Shown here in pieces: positions 54,560-55,821 of a DNA stretch of 64,000 bases (within the stretch, counting starts at the first letter, position 1; each line of letters opens with the position of its first letter). The position numbers and the translations under genes are program-made. The stretch comes from Nautilus pompilius. Taxonomy: Eukaryota; Mollusca; Cephalopoda; Nautilida; Nautilidae. The notes below the pieces were generated by a model. The model searched no databases. It had not been told where the DNA came from and worked only from the letters and a program-made list of their open reading frames with translations. The stretch is taken from positions 2,728,001 to 2,792,000 of the forward strand of contig JACATO010002204.1 of assembly GCA_018389105.1 (NCBI GenBank), read 5' to 3'.

Positions 54560-55483
54560 CTGGCTTTCCATAGCGCTGTCTCTTACACAAATTAAACTGC
54601 ATCTTTTTTTTCAAAATGCAAACCTTCTGACGCTGCACAAAATTAACTAAAGAATGCTAAATTTTTTCTGATCTGGTCAAGTGTCAAAATCGTAGCATCA
54701 ATCAGTAGAGTTAGTGGGGGGGTGCTATCTACATGAGAGTAGGGTATATGCACAAAAATATATGCCATTCAATTAGAATTCTCGTGCTTTTACCCGAACC
54801 AGACAAGTATCACAAGTTCCCCTGCTATGAGGTTATCACGAAGGTCGTGGACAGATGGACGGCAATGATTAAATTTAATGACAAGTATCTGAGTAGAAAT
54901 GAATTTACATTTTTACACGATGTAATAACATTACCAGATAACAGTTTCCCCTTCTTCTTCTTTTTTTTTTGGAGGAGGAGGAGGAGGAGGGATTAGTGTA
55001 AATGAAGAGGTTGTACCCATGTTTTAAAAAGATGTTGAAAATCTTCGTAAATTAACTAGCATAGTCGGTGAATTATTATTATTATTATTATTATTACTAC
55101 TAAAACTCTGAAGCTCTTCTAACCTCGTCGACAAATGCCGAAAACTGTTCCAAAGGCGAATACGCCAGATCTCCGTACAAAACCGTCGTTCGCATTGGCA
55201 CATCCTTGGCCAGAGGTTCCTTCGCCCGCTTGACAAAGTAGCAAACCTTCCCCTTGAAACTGGCAGGCCATTCGTGCTGGACGTTCAGCTGACCAGATGC
55301 GTTCAGGGTCACGATTAACGTGTTTTCATCGGACTTTTCAAAGAAGTCCGCGAAAATCCTGGTATTTTCCTCCAAGCTGTACATTTTGGTCCATTTTTCC
55401 CCCTTCAGCTTCAACGTCTTTAAGACGTAATCTGCGATGAAAAAAGCGCGCGGGTCATCCAAGCCTTCGATTTCGCTGGCCAT
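84..55483 (-). CDS. DNAH17: Axonemal outer-arm dynein heavy chain, DNAH17-like (5' half, exons 1-35)
   Basis: This ATP-driven motor of the ciliary or flagellar outer dynein arm slides axonemal doublets. The window holds the start (ATG at 55,483, context ACCATGG) and 34 well-supported exons plus a doubtful exon 8. All have AG/GT borders and compatible phases, summing to 7,278 bp or about 2,426 residues. Order: N-terminal tail (about 1-1170), linker (about 1171-1650), AAA1 (Walker A GPAGTGKT 1848-1855, Walker B CFDEFNR 1898-1904, sensor N1951), AAA2 (P-loop GNAGNGKS 2129-2136, WIILDGD 2201-2207). The family is about 4,450 residues long, so AAA3-6, the stalk and the C-terminus lie off the left edge. 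Compared from memory, the sequence collinearly matches human DNAH17 across every exon except exon 8. DNAH9 or DNAH11 orthology is the alternative; the adjacent PGS1 favours DNAH17. Confidence in the family is very high and in the paralogue good. Confidence 0.95.
1275..1375 (+). repeat. Possible tRNA-derived SINE head
   Basis: TGAGCTAAAGCATTGG (1,294-1,309) resembles a Pol III A box, and GAGTTCAAGAC about 40 bp further on a B box (GGTTCRANNCC). The spacing is right for a tRNA-derived promoter. There is no cloverleaf I can complete, so it is not a tRNA gene. Confidence 0.3.
2663..2945 (-). CDS. DNAH17: DNAH17 exon 34 (residues 2274-2368)
   Basis: Encodes [20 protein letters not shown] and [20 protein letters not shown], between AAA2 and AAA3. 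Acceptor TTGTAATAG|GTTTGT, lying only about 15 bases from a long compound trinucleotide repeat. Donor CAG|GTAAGC, phase 0. Intron 34 (258-2,662, 2.4 kb) has a possible tRNA-like SINE head near 1.3 kb. Confidence 0.97.
2960..3046. repeat. Compound trinucleotide microsatellite (ATT)n(AGT)n
   Basis: About 18 ATT units followed by about 10 AGT units, roughly 15 bp from the exon 34 acceptor. Read on the DNAH17 strand it is (ACT)n(AAT)n, so the branch-point region of intron 33 is made of repeated CTAC and CTAAT-like words. Confidence 0.97.
3455..3735 (+). repeat. SINE-like dispersed repeat, copy 1
   Basis: Shares with 5,300-5,570 and 44,655-44,985 the order: pyrimidine-rich TTTCTTCTTCTTC, AGTCAGCTGTG, GTTTTCTC, (T)TTCTTCCCACCTAAAAATGA, then AGTTCTAGTAGG. 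A tRNA-like head (GGTTGAGGGCTCATTGAACC) precedes it. It lies in DNAH17 intron 33. Confidence 0.6.
4829..5105 (-). CDS. DNAH17: DNAH17 exon 33 (AAA2 Walker B)
   Basis: Encodes [20 protein letters not shown] and the AAA2 Walker [21 protein letters not shown], then [13 protein letters not shown] and [20 protein letters not shown]. This is among the most conserved dynein stretches. Acceptor TTCAAG|GTCTCT, donor AATCC|GTAAGT, phase 2. Intron 33 (2,946-4,828) holds a SINE-like copy and a compound trinucleotide repeat. Confidence 0.98.
5300..5570 (+). repeat. SINE-like dispersed repeat, copy 2
   Basis: The clearest copy: TTTCTTCTCATTCTTCTTTA, CCAGTCAGCTGTGGG, CACATCTAAAAATAAAAAG and TACTGGTAGG. The upstream head has GGTTGGTTGTCCAGTTG and GGTTAGCCTCC, which loosely fit Pol III A and B boxes. 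It lies in DNAH17 intron 32. Confidence 0.6.
6560..6770 (-). CDS. DNAH17: DNAH17 exon 32 (AAA2 P-loop)
   Basis: Encodes [20 protein letters not shown] and the AAA2 P-loop GNAGNGKS (K2135, S2136), then [20 protein letters not shown] and REWKDG. Asn replaces the usual Ser or Thr before GKS; the binding Lys and Ser are kept. Acceptor AATAG|GTTGTC, donor GATG|GTATGA, phase 1. Intron 32 (5,106-6,559) has a SINE-like copy. Confidence 0.97.
7400..7594 (-). CDS. DNAH17: DNAH17 exon 31 (residues 2047-2111)
   Basis: Encodes [20 protein letters not shown] and [20 protein letters not shown], the conserved link between AAA1 and AAA2. Acceptor ATTTAG|GTGTTA, donor AAA|GTAAGT, 65 codons, phase 0. Intron 31 (6,771-7,399) holds nothing recognised. 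Confidence 0.97.
8655..9313. mobile_element. Non-autonomous hAT-type element (MITE) with perfect 8-bp TSD
   Basis: A 659-bp element with terminal inverted repeats CAGAGGCGTAGC (left) and CAGAGGCATAAC (right, reverse complement). It is flanked by identical 8-bp duplications TACATAGC at 8,647-8,654 and 9,314-9,321. The 8-bp duplication and CAGAGGC ends are typical of the hAT superfamily. Both ends carry G-rich runs (8,668-8,685) or C-rich runs (about 9,265-9,290). No transposase is encoded. It lies in DNAH17 intron 30. Confidence 0.9.
10234..10326 (-). CDS. DNAH17: DNAH17 exon 30 (residues 2016-2046)
   Basis: A 31-codon exon encoding [20 protein letters not shown] and [11 protein letters not shown], nearly identical to other axonemal dyneins. 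Acceptor TTTTCAG|GATCAC, donor CAA|GTGAGC, phase 0. Intron 30 (7,595-10,233) contains the hAT-type MITE at 8,655-9,313. Confidence 0.96.
11589..11727 (-). CDS. DNAH17: DNAH17 exon 29 (residues 1969-2015, AAA1)
   Basis: Encodes [20 protein letters not shown] and [20 protein letters not shown], the end of AAA1. Acceptor ATTTCAG|ACCATG, donor CAA|GTAAGT, phase 0. The exon has no long open frame on its own; it was found by following the phase from exon 28. Intron 29 (10,327-11,588) is plain AT-rich sequence. Confidence 0.96.
12706..12968 (-). CDS. DNAH17: DNAH17 exon 28 (AAA1 Walker B and sensor I)
   Basis: Encodes [20 protein letters not shown], with Walker B CFDEFNR (D1900, catalytic E1901), and [20 protein letters not shown] with sensor N1951. 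Acceptor AATAACAG|TCCATT, donor TTCAG|GTAAAG, phase 2. SIG replaces the SCG seen in human, from memory, which is conservative. Intron 28 (11,728-12,705) shows nothing. Confidence 0.98.
13321..13477 (-). CDS. DNAH17: DNAH17 exon 27 (AAA1 Walker A)
   Basis: Encodes [20 protein letters not shown] and the AAA1 P-loop [19 protein letters not shown], the main ATP hydrolysis site (K1854, T1855). It ends [11 protein letters not shown]. Acceptor TTGTAG|GTGCTA, donor AAG|GTAAAT, phase 0. All catalytic P-loop residues are intact. Intron 27 (12,969-13,320) holds nothing. Confidence 0.98.
14400..15340 (+). mobile_element. Tc1-like transposon relic, family A copy 1
   Basis: Plus-strand fragments match Tc1-type transposase: [18 protein letters not shown] (first catalytic Asp in SDES), a [10 protein letters not shown] segment, and a C-terminal [11 protein letters not shown]...SPTKY pattern like the IQNLIDSM...TRY end of Tc1 proteins. 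Several frame changes are needed. Parts recur at 42.0-42.8 and 43.8-44.1 kb, so this is a repeat family. It lies in DNAH17 intron 26; ends not determined. Confidence 0.7.
15875..16167 (-). CDS. DNAH17: DNAH17 exon 26 (residues 1732-1829)
   Basis: Encodes [20 protein letters not shown], then [16 protein letters not shown] and [20 protein letters not shown], the run-in to AAA1 ([19 protein letters not shown]). Acceptor TTTTCAG|ATTCAA, donor GACAG|GTTTGT, phase 2. Intron 26 (13,478-15,874) holds a Tc1-like relic at about 14.4-15.3 kb. Confidence 0.97.
16761..16994 (-). CDS. DNAH17: DNAH17 exon 25 (residues 1654-1731)
   Basis: Encodes [20 protein letters not shown] and the block [20 protein letters not shown] (D.PAQ......IWWT is near-universal in axonemal dyneins). 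It ends GMKDYNKKQ. Acceptor GATTAG|GTTGAA, donor CAG|GTAGAG, 78 codons, phase 0. Intron 25 (16,168-16,760) has short TA runs and nothing else. Confidence 0.97.
17987..18139 (-). CDS. DNAH17: DNAH17 exon 24 (residues 1603-1653, linker)
   Basis: Encodes [20 protein letters not shown] and [20 protein letters not shown]. Acceptor AAAACAG|GTTGCA, donor CAA|GTAAGT, 51 codons, phase 0. It matches the HLSKLFDSL and MYSKEDE segments of relatives. Intron 24 (16,995-17,986) holds unrecognised AT-rich sequence; a slightly less AT-rich patch near 17.2-17.5 kb may be an old repeat. Confidence 0.94.
18240..18530 (-). mobile_element. Tc1-like helix-turn-helix relic
   Basis: On the minus strand, [40 protein letters not shown] and, after a stop, [20 protein letters not shown] resemble the paired-type helix-turn-helix of Tc1-like transposases (GRP/GRK hinge, then TSRQLA...TG). 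Only the N-terminal part is recognisable. It lies about 100 bp upstream of DNAH17 exon 24. Confidence 0.6.
19551..19769 (-). CDS. DNAH17: DNAH17 exon 23 (residues 1530-1602, linker)
   Basis: Encodes [20 protein letters not shown] and [19 protein letters not shown], a classic linker signature. Acceptor TTTTACAG|GAATTA, donor ATA|GTAATG (a weaker donor), phase 0. Intron 23 (18,140-19,550) contains a Tc1-like helix-turn-helix relic just upstream of exon 24. Confidence 0.96.
21249..21473 (-). CDS. DNAH17: DNAH17 exon 22 (residues 1455-1529, linker)
   Basis: Encodes [20 protein letters not shown] and [20 protein letters not shown], the [14 protein letters not shown] block shared by all ciliary outer-arm chains. 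Acceptor TTTCAG|GTACAA, donor AAA|GTAGGT, 75 codons, phase 0. Intron 22 (19,770-21,248) is AT-rich with no recognised element. Confidence 0.97.
22612..22857 (-). CDS. DNAH17: DNAH17 exon 21 (residues 1373-1454, linker)
   Basis: Encodes [20 protein letters not shown] and [20 protein letters not shown], ending [10 protein letters not shown]. These are near-invariant linker segments in outer-arm beta chains. Acceptor TTTTCAAG|GTTCGT, donor CAG|GTAAGG, 82 codons, phase 0. Intron 21 (21,474-22,611) shows nothing. Confidence 0.97.
24414..24815 (-). CDS. DNAH17: DNAH17 exon 20 (residues 1239-1372, linker)
   Basis: The largest exon seen, 134 codons. Linker hallmarks are [20 protein letters not shown], the [20 protein letters not shown] block and [13 protein letters not shown]. 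Acceptor TTTTCAG|TATAAT, donor AAT|GTAAGT, phase 0. Intron 20 (22,858-24,413, 1.56 kb) is AT-rich without a recognised element. Confidence 0.97.
25187..25390 (-). CDS. DNAH17: DNAH17 exon 19 (residues 1171-1238, start of linker region)
   Basis: Encodes [20 protein letters not shown] and [15 protein letters not shown]. Acceptor ATTTAG|GAGCTT, donor AAG|GTTAGT, 68 codons, phase 0. The W...KK......V.PLQ pattern marks the DHC N-terminal region 2, or linker. Intron 19 (24,816-25,186) shows nothing. Confidence 0.95.
25933..27218 (-). mobile_element. Hsmar1-like mariner, near complete but decayed
   Basis: About 1.29 kb between imperfect TIRs (left TAGGTTGTTACAAATGTTTT, right end, reverse complement, TAAAGTCATTACAAAAGTTT), with TA on both sides. 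On the minus strand, fragments resemble the Hsmar1/SETMAR transposase: [32 protein letters not shown] with [37 protein letters not shown] and terminal [14 protein letters not shown]. Frames are broken, and the second catalytic site reads LLQEDAHPS where the family has LLHDNARPH, so its Asp is lost. It lies in DNAH17 intron 18. Confidence 0.85.
28807..29029 (-). CDS. DNAH17: DNAH17 exon 18 (residues 1096-1170)
   Basis: Encodes [20 protein letters not shown] and the highly conserved [20 protein letters not shown], then [13 protein letters not shown]. Acceptor TTTGCAG|CTTGAA, donor GAG|GTAACA, phase 0. It leads into the linker. Intron 18 (25,391-28,806, 3.4 kb) contains a near-complete Hsmar1-like mariner. 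Confidence 0.96.
29644..29813 (-). CDS. DNAH17: DNAH17 exon 17 (residues 1040-1096)
   Basis: Encodes [20 protein letters not shown] and [20 protein letters not shown]. Acceptor TTGTAG|ATTGAT, donor AACAG|GTAACA, phase 2, splitting the codon after HVTN. Intron 17 (29,030-29,643) holds no element; a 97-codon plus-strand open frame there looks like chance. Confidence 0.93.
30452..30706 (-). CDS. DNAH17: DNAH17 exon 16 (residues 955-1039)
   Basis: Encodes [20 protein letters not shown] then [20 protein letters not shown], and ends LEQFKQQ. Acceptor TCTTTTAG|CCTGAT, donor CAG|GTAAGA, 85 codons, phase 0. The YLW.D....FM..FL.Y motif matches relatives. Intron 16 (29,814-30,451) shows nothing. Confidence 0.95.
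32259..32591 (-). CDS. DNAH17: DNAH17 exon 15 (residues 844-954)
   Basis: A 111-codon exon encoding [20 protein letters not shown] and [20 protein letters not shown]. Acceptor TTTCCAG|GAAAAC, donor CAG|GTAAAA, phase 0. Intron 15 (30,707-32,258, 1.55 kb) has a short ATT-type repeat near 31,808-31,830 and nothing else recognised. Confidence 0.94.
32790..33240 (-). mobile_element. Tc1-like C-terminal relic
   Basis: Minus-strand reading gives [15 protein letters not shown] followed, after a frameshift, by [13 protein letters not shown]. This is the decayed equivalent of the NWFEDHEMDF...PDLNPIEHLW stretch of Tc1 transposases. A TIR-like CACTGCCTAACCAAAATATT starts near 32,785. It lies in DNAH17 intron 14. 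Confidence 0.6.
33954..34198 (-). CDS. DNAH17: DNAH17 exon 14 (residues 762-843)
   Basis: Encodes [20 protein letters not shown] and [20 protein letters not shown], helical tail. Acceptor TTCATAG|GAGTTT completes a split Gly codon. Donor CTTAAA|GTAAGT, phase 0. Intron 14 (32,592-33,953) carries a decayed Tc1-like relic at about 32.8-33.24 kb. Confidence 0.94.
34612..34867 (-). CDS. DNAH17: DNAH17 exon 13 (residues 677-762)
   Basis: Encodes [20 protein letters not shown], a hallmark (VAVLREVKY) of the dynein N-terminal region, and ends SLNWNGDG. Acceptor TTTCAG|CTTGTG, donor GATG|GTATGT, phase 1. Intron 13 (34,199-34,611) holds nothing recognisable. Confidence 0.95.
35438..35451 (+). promoter_or_regulatory. 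CTCF core motif, exact consensus match
   Basis: CCACTAGATGGCAG fits CCASYAGRKGGCRS at all 14 positions. Nine fixed and five two-fold positions make a chance match in this window unlikely (about 1-2% for both strands at even base composition, less in AT-rich DNA). It sits in DNAH17 intron 12. Binding is not shown by sequence. Confidence 0.5.
36596..36722 (-). CDS. DNAH17: DNAH17 exon 12 (residues 634-676)
   Basis: Encodes [20 protein letters not shown] and [20 protein letters not shown]. Acceptor ATTGCAG|TGTTGA, donor CAG|GTAAAA, ending in phase 0. Intron 12 (34,868-36,595) contains a 14-base perfect match to the CTCF core consensus at 35,438-35,451 and otherwise nothing recognised. Confidence 0.93.
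38850..38918 (-). CDS. DNAH17: DNAH17 exon 11 (residues 611-634)
   Basis: A 69-bp exon encoding [20 protein letters not shown] after a split Pro codon. Acceptor TTTTACAG|ATGTAC, donor GCTAA|GTAAGT, phase 2 to phase 2. It matches the YQKYDEMMELL segment of relatives. Intron 11 (36,723-38,849, 2.1 kb) is AT-rich without a recognised element. Confidence 0.9.
39537..39802 (-). CDS. DNAH17: DNAH17 exon 10 (residues 523-611)
   Basis: Encodes [20 protein letters not shown] and [20 protein letters not shown], both strongly conserved tail motifs (HKNMPPVAG in relatives). Acceptor AATTTAG|TTATTA, donor CATCC|GTAGGT, phase 2. Intron 10 (38,919-39,536) holds a short TA-rich run near 39,353 and nothing else recognised. 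Confidence 0.94.
40990..41106 (-). CDS. DNAH17: DNAH17 exon 9 (residues 484-522)
   Basis: Encodes [20 protein letters not shown] followed by the conserved [14 protein letters not shown]. Acceptor ATTTTAG|GAGTTT, donor AAG|GTACAA, 39 codons, phase 0. Intron 9 (39,803-40,989) includes a chance 82-codon plus-strand open frame and no recognisable element. Confidence 0.93.
42000..42780 (+). mobile_element. Tc1-like transposon relic, family A copy 2
   Basis: Shares AAAGGAATCAAAGCAT-type sequence with the 14.4-15.3 kb copy. It encodes [13 protein letters not shown] on the plus strand, the decayed form of the Tc1 NPIEHLW motif that precedes the third catalytic residue, then [13 protein letters not shown]. 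Stops are frequent. It lies in the intron between exons 9 and 8 of DNAH17. Confidence 0.65.
43236..43826. mobile_element. Possible MITE with diverged inverted ends
   Basis: The left end CAATGGGCATCCACAGAG resembles the reverse complement of the right end, CCATAGGTGTTCACAAGG. Differences are mostly transitions, and both are followed by a GGGTGG-like run. No clear target duplication was found, so the call is tentative. No coding content is seen. Confidence 0.35.
43826..44090 (+). mobile_element. Tc1-like relic, family A copy 3 (3' part only)
   Basis: Aligns by eye with 15,010-15,300: GTTAAGAGTAATC against CTAAGAGTAAACC, GATTCAATACCAAACAGG against GATTCAATGTCAAACAAAGG, and ACATTGTAATAACAAGTAGC against ATATTGTAATAGCAACAGGC, with CCAAATTATTA in both. 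Only the 3' portion is present. It starts where a MITE-like sequence ends. Confidence 0.6.
44149..44208 (-). CDS. DNAH17: Candidate cassette exon 8 of DNAH17 (20 codons)
   Basis: A 60-bp open segment with good splice signals: acceptor TTTTTTTACCAG|CAACTG, donor AAG|GTATGA, phase 0 at both ends. It would insert [20 protein letters not shown] between exons 7 and 9. Human DNAH17, as I remember it, has no counterpart there, and exon 7-exon 9 joining is collinear without it. It could be a lineage-specific cassette exon or a chance exon-like stretch. The intron to its left (41,107-44,148) carries Tc1-like and MITE-like relics. Confidence 0.35.
44655..44985 (+). repeat. SINE-like dispersed repeat, copy 3
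   Basis: Shares ACTCTTCTTCCCTAGCCAG, GGTTTCTTCTCATGCC, CATGTCTAAAAATAAAAAGC and CCAGCAGAGATTT with copies 1 and 2. It is more diverged at the 5' end. It lies in DNAH17 intron 7. Confidence 0.55.
45153..45320 (-). CDS. DNAH17: DNAH17 exon 7 (residues 428-483)
   Basis: Encodes [20 protein letters not shown], whose LEKIELGG motif is diagnostic of the outer-arm beta class, and ends [10 protein letters not shown]. Acceptor TTTTTAAG|AGTTTG, donor CAG|GTAAAT, phase 0. Splicing straight to exon 9 gives an ungapped match to the family. Intron 7 (44,209-45,152) contains a SINE-like copy. Confidence 0.93.
46710..46943 (-). CDS. DNAH17: DNAH17 exon 6 (residues 350-427)
   Basis: Begins [20 protein letters not shown] and ends [13 protein letters not shown], an alpha-helical tail segment. 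Acceptor TTTTTAAG|GCAAGA, donor AAG|GTACAT, 78 codons, phase 0. Intron 6 (45,321-46,709) is very AT-rich with homopolymer runs and shows no transposon. Confidence 0.93.
47542..47753 (-). CDS. DNAH17: DNAH17 exon 5 (residues 279-349)
   Basis: Encodes [20 protein letters not shown] followed by the conserved [20 protein letters not shown] helix of the tail (human counterpart has IWATSEYYNTPARIIVILQE, from memory). Acceptor TTTAG|GTTTAA, donor CAG|GTAAAT, phase 0. Intron 5 (46,944-47,541) holds nothing recognisable. Confidence 0.94.
48311..48410 (-). CDS. DNAH17: DNAH17 exon 4 (residues 246-279)
   Basis: A 100-bp exon encoding [20 protein letters not shown] and [13 protein letters not shown]. 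Acceptor CTTTAG|TTAAAA, donor GCAG|GTAAGA, phase 1. It is too short to stand out as an open frame and was found from splice signals plus homology. Intron 4 (47,754-48,310) shows no element. Confidence 0.9.
48732..48760. repeat. (CA)n microsatellite
   Basis: About 14 perfect CA units in DNAH17 intron 3, about 85 bp upstream of the exon 3 donor on the plus-strand map. Confidence 0.97.
48845..49034 (-). CDS. DNAH17: DNAH17 exon 3 (residues 182-245)
   Basis: The split Asn codon is completed by TTTACAG|TGATCC, giving [20 protein letters not shown], then [19 protein letters not shown]. This is a classic start of the DHC N-terminal region 1. Donor CAG|GTGAGA, phase 0. Intron 3 (48,411-48,844) holds a CA microsatellite at 48,732-48,760 and otherwise nothing recognisable. 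Confidence 0.93.
51549..51733 (-). CDS. DNAH17: DNAH17 exon 2 (residues 121-182)
   Basis: Encodes [20 protein letters not shown] and the following [18 protein letters not shown] segment, which aligns with the N-terminal tail of DNAH9/11/17. Acceptor AATAG|GTGTTG and donor GAAAA|GTAAGT, leaving two bases of an Asn codon. Intron 2 (49,035-51,548, 2.5 kb) is plain AT-rich sequence in which I recognise nothing. Confidence 0.93.
52650..53500 (-). mobile_element. Probable Tc1-like transposase relic
   Basis: The minus strand at about 53,165-53,215 encodes [12 protein letters not shown], the Tc1 first-catalytic-Asp motif (V.FTDESRF), followed by broken frames. A further 60-codon open stretch (52,714-52,899, with [20 protein letters not shown]) is not recognised. 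The region is less AT-rich than the surrounding intron 1 of DNAH17. Ends not determined. Confidence 0.5.
54519..54558. repeat. (TCAA)n microsatellite
   Basis: About 9 to 10 TCAA units in DNAH17 intron 1. Confidence 0.97.
54733..54996 (+). other. Unassigned open frame in DNAH17 intron 1
   Basis: An 87-codon plus-strand frame with near coding-like composition at first ([20 protein letters not shown] then [14 protein letters not shown]), ending in low-complexity Phe and Arg from the pyrimidine/GGA repeat. I recognise no family. It could be a decayed transposon fragment or chance; no function is assigned. Confidence 0.2.
54951..54990. repeat. Pyrimidine run next to (GGA)n
   Basis: A CCCCTTCTTCTTC-T10 run passes directly into GGAGGAGGAGGAGGAGGAGG. 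This polypyrimidine-to-polypurine switch on one strand is about 130 bp downstream of the DNAH17 exon 1 donor. Confidence 0.9.
55073..55096. repeat. (ATT)n microsatellite
   Basis: About 8 ATT units just inside DNAH17 intron 1, about 30 bp from the exon 1 donor. Confidence 0.95.
55124..55483 (-). CDS. DNAH17: DNAH17 exon 1 (residues 1-120)
   Basis: The start codon lies in a strong Kozak context (ACCATGG). The exon encodes the N-terminal tail, with [20 protein letters not shown] and the family-typical [13 protein letters not shown] region. The donor is GAG|GTTAGA, phase 0; reading on would hit a stop 7 codons later. It is clearly richer in G+C and CpG than all downstream exons because it lies in the promoter-proximal CpG-rich segment. 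Intron 1 (51,734-55,123) holds a Tc1-like relic, a TCAA microsatellite and an unassigned open frame. Confidence 0.93.

Positions 55484-55821: not shown

Follow-up and report, generated by a model that had tools for sequence, protein, structure and literature searches.

An outer-arm dynein heavy chain gene and PGS1 lie head to head within one CpG island of Nautilus pompilius

Two divergent genes

The window, a 64,000-nucleotide stretch of the Nautilus pompilius genome, carries two genes whose start codons face away from each other. On the minus strand, the first coding exon of an axonemal dynein heavy chain gene (55124-55483; 120 codons) runs from an ATG at 55483 to a GAG/GTTAGA donor. In a phmmer search of PDB chains, the best of its three matches was Dynein axonemal heavy chain 17 (E 5.3e-18), and since residue 15 of the query already aligns to residue 11 of that chain (15-121 to 11-116), little upstream coding sequence can be missing. 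Exon 2 begins at an acceptor at 51733 and continues as an in-phase open frame; the remaining tail and motor exons (69-51733, minus strand) are represented by open frames 45 codons or longer, splice borders being defined for exons 1 and 2, and the gene leaves the window at its left end. The joined pieces match Pfam DHC_N1 at 235.3 bits, as well as PDB chains. By sequence, this is an outer-arm beta heavy chain gene of the DNAH9/17 type. The sequence-only reading had named it DNAH17, which is too specific on 1560 aligned sites: it is possible that the gene is a DNAH17 ortholog, and also possible that it branches outside DNAH9 and DNAH17 together. A DNAH9-specific position was rejected on the same sites, with DNAH11 left out of the comparison.

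On the plus strand, the first coding exon of PGS1 (55739-55821) extends from an ATG at 55739 to the donor GTAAGAATT, followed in phase, with AG/GT borders, by exons 2-5 (57514-57703, 58202-58279, 59128-59414, and 62995-63176), after which the gene runs beyond the window. The product matches the NCBIfam PssA equivalog at 71.5 bits (E 6.2e-20), under its cut-off of 314, and a PssA chain in the PDB (E 8e-13). Its N terminus is amphipathic and arginine-rich, with the first acidic residue at position 34 and a top 18-residue hydrophobic moment of 0.62 (99.6th percentile of the fragment), features compatible with a mitochondrial presequence.

The intergenic region and its CpG island

The two ATGs are separated by 255 bp (55484-55738; GC 0.47, 22 CpG). 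The window's strongest CpG island, at 54901-57100 (117 CpG, observed/expected 1.14, GC 0.43), contains this region, covers both first exons, and reaches into PGS1 intron 1, whereas the remaining 61800 bases hold 224 CpG (observed/expected 0.18, GC 0.29). Gene families, orientation, spacing, and island are established here, in agreement with the head-to-head arrangement originally described. At a threshold of 12 CpG per 400 bp, the other dense stretches are 59601-60300 and 60401-61000, which by eye resemble a transposon copy.

An upstream ORF of 51 codons (55635-55790, plus strand), whose Kozak context is strong, with A at -3 and G at +4, and which has no match in a Pfam search, overlaps the PGS1 ATG out of frame; this overlap suggests that PGS1 transcription begins downstream of 55635, or else that the transcript is repressed by the ORF.

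A putative bidirectional promoter

Because both genes are real and start head to head within one CpG island, a bidirectional promoter, shared as the sequence-only reading proposed, is the natural interpretation, its transcription starts being inferred. We consider it quite likely that 55484-55738 is an ordinary bidirectional CpG-island promoter between the two genes, probably composed of two back-to-back core promoters firing outward. The ATG positions, the splice borders seen in PGS1 and at dynein exons 1 and 2, the out-of-frame ORF, and the match near the DNAH17 N terminus argue for this interpretation, as does the CpG peak (32-35 per 400 bp), which falls within 55351-56050, a stretch that includes the end of dynein exon 1 together with the gap and PGS1 exon 1. 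However, untranslated upstream exons could shift either start, and the island is asymmetric, reaching deeper into PGS1 intron 1, where a 107-bp tandem repeat makes up part of it, than into the dynein side.

Motif evidence was sought with 17 patterns, using 500 shuffles of 55383-55839 as control. A candidate TATA box, TATAAATA (55548-55555), sits on the dynein strand about 65 bp upstream of the dynein ATG, which favors the bidirectional promoter, but an equally good site arose in 39 of the 500 shuffles. A candidate ETS/GABP site in PGS1 exon 1, ACCGGAAGC (55748-55756, minus strand; 12/500 shuffles), lacks significance given the number of patterns. Both matches are weak after multiple testing and count against the proposal, as do the absence of Sp1, YY1, CRE, or NF-Y matches at the thresholds used and the chance-level NRF1- and E2F-like matches.

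In the proposed promoter, a hypomethylated island would hold a single nucleosome-depleted region open, with a TATA-like dynein core starting near 55525 and a GC-rich, TATA-less PGS1 core starting between about 55640 and 55738. Open chromatin would be the main thing shared, so that coexpression need not follow, and any coregulation is conjectural. The dynein is a motor of the cilium, and PGS1 acts in making a mitochondrial membrane lipid. The suggested coupling of flagellum and midpiece finds no support in the promoter sequence, where ciliary X-box matches are at chance level, and a link between flagellum and cardiolipin is speculation.

Comparison with amphioxus and human

Shared divergent promoters of this type are common. 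In PMC6292497, bidirectional promoters are the arrangement of 25% (3,950/15,884) of neighboring genes in amphioxus, a frequency that favors the promoter interpretation.

The sequence-only reading also proposed that the human neighbors appear to have their 3' ends together, and that adjacency kept in this way would mean an ancient gene pair with a local inversion. Human PGS1 presumably lies on the plus strand and DNAH17 on the minus strand, tail to tail. Given such a convergent pair, a single inversion fails, as 0 of 21 enumerated inversions of a model neighborhood turn a divergent pair convergent. That change can come about through two inversions, transposition of a block, or a tandem duplication followed by reciprocal loss. 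That the human genes share a locus without being head to head is borne out by one table row of PMC4684622, which assigns chr17:76403955 (hg19) to PGS1 (+29221) and DNAH17 (+169520) under the heading "Gene annotation from GREAT (distance from TSS)". Computed from this row, the distance between the two starts is 140 or 199 kb under any strand combination, and with at least 140 kb between them they have no common promoter.

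The divergent gene pair and the interval between its start codons

In the window, an outer-arm beta dynein heavy chain gene and the phosphatidylglycerophosphate synthase gene PGS1 run outward from one point. The dynein ATG lies at 55483 on the minus strand and is followed by open frames with dynein similarity up to the left window end; the PGS1 ATG lies at 55739 on the plus strand and opens five in-phase coding exons to 63176, beyond which the gene continues past the right window end. The head-to-head arrangement described by the sequence-only reading stands, with divergent ATGs 255 bp apart inside a CpG island. 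A bidirectional promoter is defined by divergent genes whose starts lie less than 1 kb apart and, with the transcription starts inferred from the ATGs, this is probably a bidirectional promoter arrangement of two ordinary genes. The modelled exons of PGS1 have AG/GT splice borders, and the dynein splice sites inspected were the exon 1 donor and the exon 2 acceptor; neither gene looks like a retrocopy.

The island (54901-57100) contains 117 CpG at an observed/expected ratio of 1.14 and spans both putative start regions. Across the other 61800 bases of the window the ratio is 0.18, and TpG+CpA is raised (1.26). CpG depletion with an excess of TpG and CpA is the usual mark of germline methylation, and this composition suggests that outside 54901-57100 both gene bodies, with their introns, are heavily methylated in the germline; we infer low methylation of the island itself.

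Seventeen motif patterns, all written from general consensus sequences, were either run against shuffles or found absent. A TATA-like TATAAATA lies at 55555-55548 on the dynein strand (such a site also turns up in 39 of 500 dinucleotide shuffles of 55383-55839) and a candidate ETS-type ACCGGAAGC in PGS1 exon 1, 55739-55821 (12/500 shuffles); after correction for 17 patterns neither holds. Matches to NRF1 (396/500 shuffles as good), E2F (475/500) and MYB (390/500) are at chance level, and Sp1, YY1, CRE, NF-Y, FOXJ1-like, fly Inr and DRE-like patterns had no match in 55383-55839 at the thresholds used. A 51-codon frame (55635-55790), whose upstream ATG at 55635 has a strong context, overlaps the PGS1 start out of frame, which argues that PGS1 transcripts would start downstream of 55635 or that PGS1 translation would be restrained. 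Neither ARAGORN, run with the bacterial code, nor an Rfam search with gathering scores as threshold gave a match.

A 107-bp tandem repeat (56331-56955, 5.8 copies, 96% matches) occupies part of PGS1 intron 1 within the island and could hold regulatory sites. Transposon-like sequence was seen in both genes. By eye, an insertion in a PGS1 intron (59520-60880) resembles a mariner-type transposon on the minus strand, three pieces of which had no transposase match in Pfam, and a minus-strand frame at 61355-61570 appears to be the end of a Tc1-type transposase, also with no Pfam match. Inside the dynein gene, mariner-type transposase frames lie in several pieces at 26142-26881; Pfam Transposase_1 matches at 26349-26543 with 68.3 bits, and two neighbouring pieces had no transposase match.

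The sequence-only reading had also found a coupling of a motile-cilium motor to mitochondrial cardiolipin synthesis suggestive (sperm flagellum and midpiece). In a functional form of this idea, the shared promoter would drive the flagellar motor of sperm together with a cardiolipin enzyme in the male germ line. We consider this very unlikely. PGS1 is a housekeeping enzyme, and the X-box (general consensus, four spacings) occurs in 55383-55839 at chance level: the best matches have two mismatches, and at each spacing 141-156 of 500 shuffles do as well. Over the whole window, X-box matches with up to three mismatches number 357 at the first spacing (shuffle mean 311.7; 1 shuffle in 100 got as high) and 339 at the second (shuffle mean 312.1; 8 in 100); this excess is a whole-window count, and the positions listed end before the promoter. 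A tie between PGS1 and a cilium-associated gene does exist in the Cfap418-/- mouse retina, where PGS1 protein is down about 40-45% (PMC10906455). However, that case concerns photoreceptors and not motile cilia, and "dynein" does not occur in the excerpted text, so it offers at most a hint. The literature matches listed include no title on PGS1 and the flagellum, and the flagellum-cardiolipin reading finds little support.

Identity of the two genes

Exon 1 of the dynein (55124..55483) matched three PDB chains up to E 1, led by DNAH17 (E 5.3e-18, aligned near the DNAH17 N terminus) and followed by two putative dynein chains; DNAH9 was absent from the three. A 1016-residue join of tail exons scored 938.8 bits against DNAH17 and 915.6 against DNAH9, and a 1310-residue join of later exons scored 2173.2 and 2107.6, respectively. 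For both the tail and the motor join, ranks 1-3 were DNAH17, DNAH9 and 7kzm_B, a flagellar outer dynein arm heavy chain beta, and no chain named DNAH11 was among the matches listed (60 of 84 for the later-exon join). Beta chains thus lead the matches in the tail as well as in the motor, which is the mark of an outer-arm beta heavy chain. Identity to the window dynein is 69.2% for DNAH17 (9fqr, 1554 aligned sites) and 67.8% for DNAH9 (8j07, 1555 aligned sites).

Placement was examined in a four-taxon test of the window dynein, DNAH17, DNAH9 and, as outgroup, 7kzm_B, which we take to come from Chlamydomonas. The 1560 aligned sites left out about 600 N-terminal tail residues of the 1016-residue join and roughly the first 135 residues of the 1310-residue join. 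With DNAH11 absent from the taxon set, a grouping of the window dynein with DNAH17 obtained AU p values of 0.30 (LG+G4) and 0.25 (JTT+F+R3), and a position outside DNAH9+DNAH17 obtained 0.72 and 0.78. Orthology to DNAH9 was rejected on all 1560 sites (AU p 0.013 and 0.004 under the same two models). Three segments differ in their best tree: the linker alone preferred the DNAH17 grouping (AU 0.84), AAA1-3 alone preferred the outside position (AU 0.89-0.90), and the tail favoured no tree, with DNAH9 scoring above DNAH17 there (454.4 versus 407.3 bits). The linker-only support for DNAH17 weakened once more data were joined. Because the DNAH17 and outside positions both stand, the segments disagree and DNAH11 was not included, we label the gene, on its sequence, as a DNAH9/17-type outer-arm beta heavy chain. 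The name DNAH17, as first proposed, is too specific: the results speak for an outer-arm beta chain and against a DNAH9 position, and they allow a group of the window dynein and DNAH17 apart from DNAH9 without singling it out.

The 273-residue N-terminal fragment of PGS1 matched the PssA model PRK09428 at 71.5 bits (E 6.2e-20), under the cut-off of 314, and solved PssA chains at E 8e-13. In this comparison with bacterial PssA, of the PLD superfamily, the model covers fragment residues 65-247 and the structures 65-240, the window supplying only the N-terminal 273 residues of PGS1. Pfam gave PLDc_2 at 21.7 bits and PLDc at 15.1 bits, both below gathering. Synthases of the PssA/PGS1 type carry two HxK motifs; the fragment has one, at residue 199, and the second is expected in the C-terminal part, outside the window. 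As only part of the protein is at hand, this may account for the low profile scores. The N terminus is amphipathic and arginine-rich, with its first acidic residue at 34 and a hydrophobic moment that ranks at the 99.6th percentile within the fragment, and would fit a mitochondrial targeting sequence. PGS1 is the animal member of the PssA family; for this reason, and from the mitochondrial-like N terminus and the general features of the animal protein, we take the fragment to be PGS1 rather than another PssA relative. Viral contigs searched for relatives of PGS1 exons 4-5 gave three pattern matches and no relatives.

The human locus and the change of orientation

In human, 17q25.3 is given as the locus of both DNAH17 and PGS1, and for a methylation site at hg19 chr17:76403955 the distances to the transcription starts are given as +29221 for PGS1 and +169520 for DNAH17 (PMC4684622). 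These distances put the two starts 140,299 or 198,741 bp apart for any strands, which excludes a head-to-head order in human; on this source, human PGS1 and DNAH17 do not share a promoter, which also counts against a promoter-level coupling of flagellum and cardiolipin. The human genes had been described at the outset as neighbours that appear to be convergent; they are presumably immediate neighbours in tail-to-tail order. Within the excerpts of the literature naming both genes, passages on either describe no pair arrangement. In Drosophila, PGS1 is presumably CG7718, near Dhc93AB, and the literature search found no text naming both of these. An arthropod motor-protein study left dynein heavy chains out of its analysis (PMC2674883), and DNAH9 and DNAH17 are not named in the excerpts of PMC12338079.

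An ancient pair with a local inversion had been suggested to reconcile adjacency with the differing orientations. In an enumeration with two genes and four flanking markers, the 21 possible single inversions leave the pair divergent in 15 cases, separate it in 4, make it tandem in 2 and never make it convergent; kept adjacency with a local inversion is therefore not a one-step history, and that explanation falls. Of 441 ordered pairs of inversions, 6 gave convergence, as did 2 of the 70 simple transpositions but none of the 70 inverted ones. After tandem duplication of the pair, convergence followed in one of four keep patterns (both outer copies lost).

History of the pair and comparison with known systems

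It is possible, and we put it tentatively, that the head-to-head order of a beta dynein and PGS1 goes back to the bilaterian ancestor, and that their starts separated at the same locus in vertebrates. Two inversions, a block transposition, or a tandem duplication followed by reciprocal loss could have done this, all events that the enumeration identified as giving convergence. Consistent with this, GREAT links both human genes at 17q25.3 to a single site within PGS1, cattle and mouse lists, as excerpted, each put both genes at one locus, and the window dynein sits with DNAH17 or outside DNAH9+17. However, the case draws on two lineages, one with a partly presumed orientation, and since the change lies beyond one inversion, unbroken adjacency asks for more steps than it would in a pair whose order had stayed the same. 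That the orientations differ and are not joinable by one inversion fits an adjacency that arose independently in the Nautilus lineage and in vertebrates, which we regard as a serious possibility falling short of an even chance. Animal genomes have many neighbour pairs, some of which should coincide; against this, the human paralogue at the PGS1 locus is DNAH17, the window dynein is not placed with DNAH9, and a coincidence of exactly this pair would seem unlikely a priori.

In amphioxus, 25% of neighbouring genes are in bidirectional promoters; the share is 12.83% in mouse, 7.84% in zebrafish, and vertebrates lost most of 372 putatively ancestral bidirectional promoters (PMC6292497). These figures, as excerpted, would make an old divergent pair that was later untied plausible in general; they are not specific to dynein and PGS1. 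A more particular version of the ancient pair, in which the bilaterian genes were first transcribed divergently from one promoter and became tail to tail in vertebrates when the entire pair was duplicated in tandem and the outer copies were reciprocally lost, is in our view improbable. If true, duplication and reciprocal loss kept the linkage and untied the promoter, and bidirectional promoters would have a route to "disentangling" besides whole-genome duplication. An old pair, by any route, would be a clean case of linkage outliving a shared promoter, and the mechanism of bidirectional-promoter loss could be tested by orientation counts across phyla; if it is lineage-specific, this is an ordinary bidirectional promoter.

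Compared with known systems, the human locus holds the same two gene families, but with starts 140 or 199 kb apart and tails presumably together, whereas the ATGs of the window are separated by 255 bp. In contrast to the amphioxus bidirectional set, as far as the excerpted source describes it, one partner here is a cilium motor and the starts are placed from ATGs; like that set (PMC6292497), the pair comprises two protein genes, one of them with a housekeeping role, that face away from each other across a short interval.
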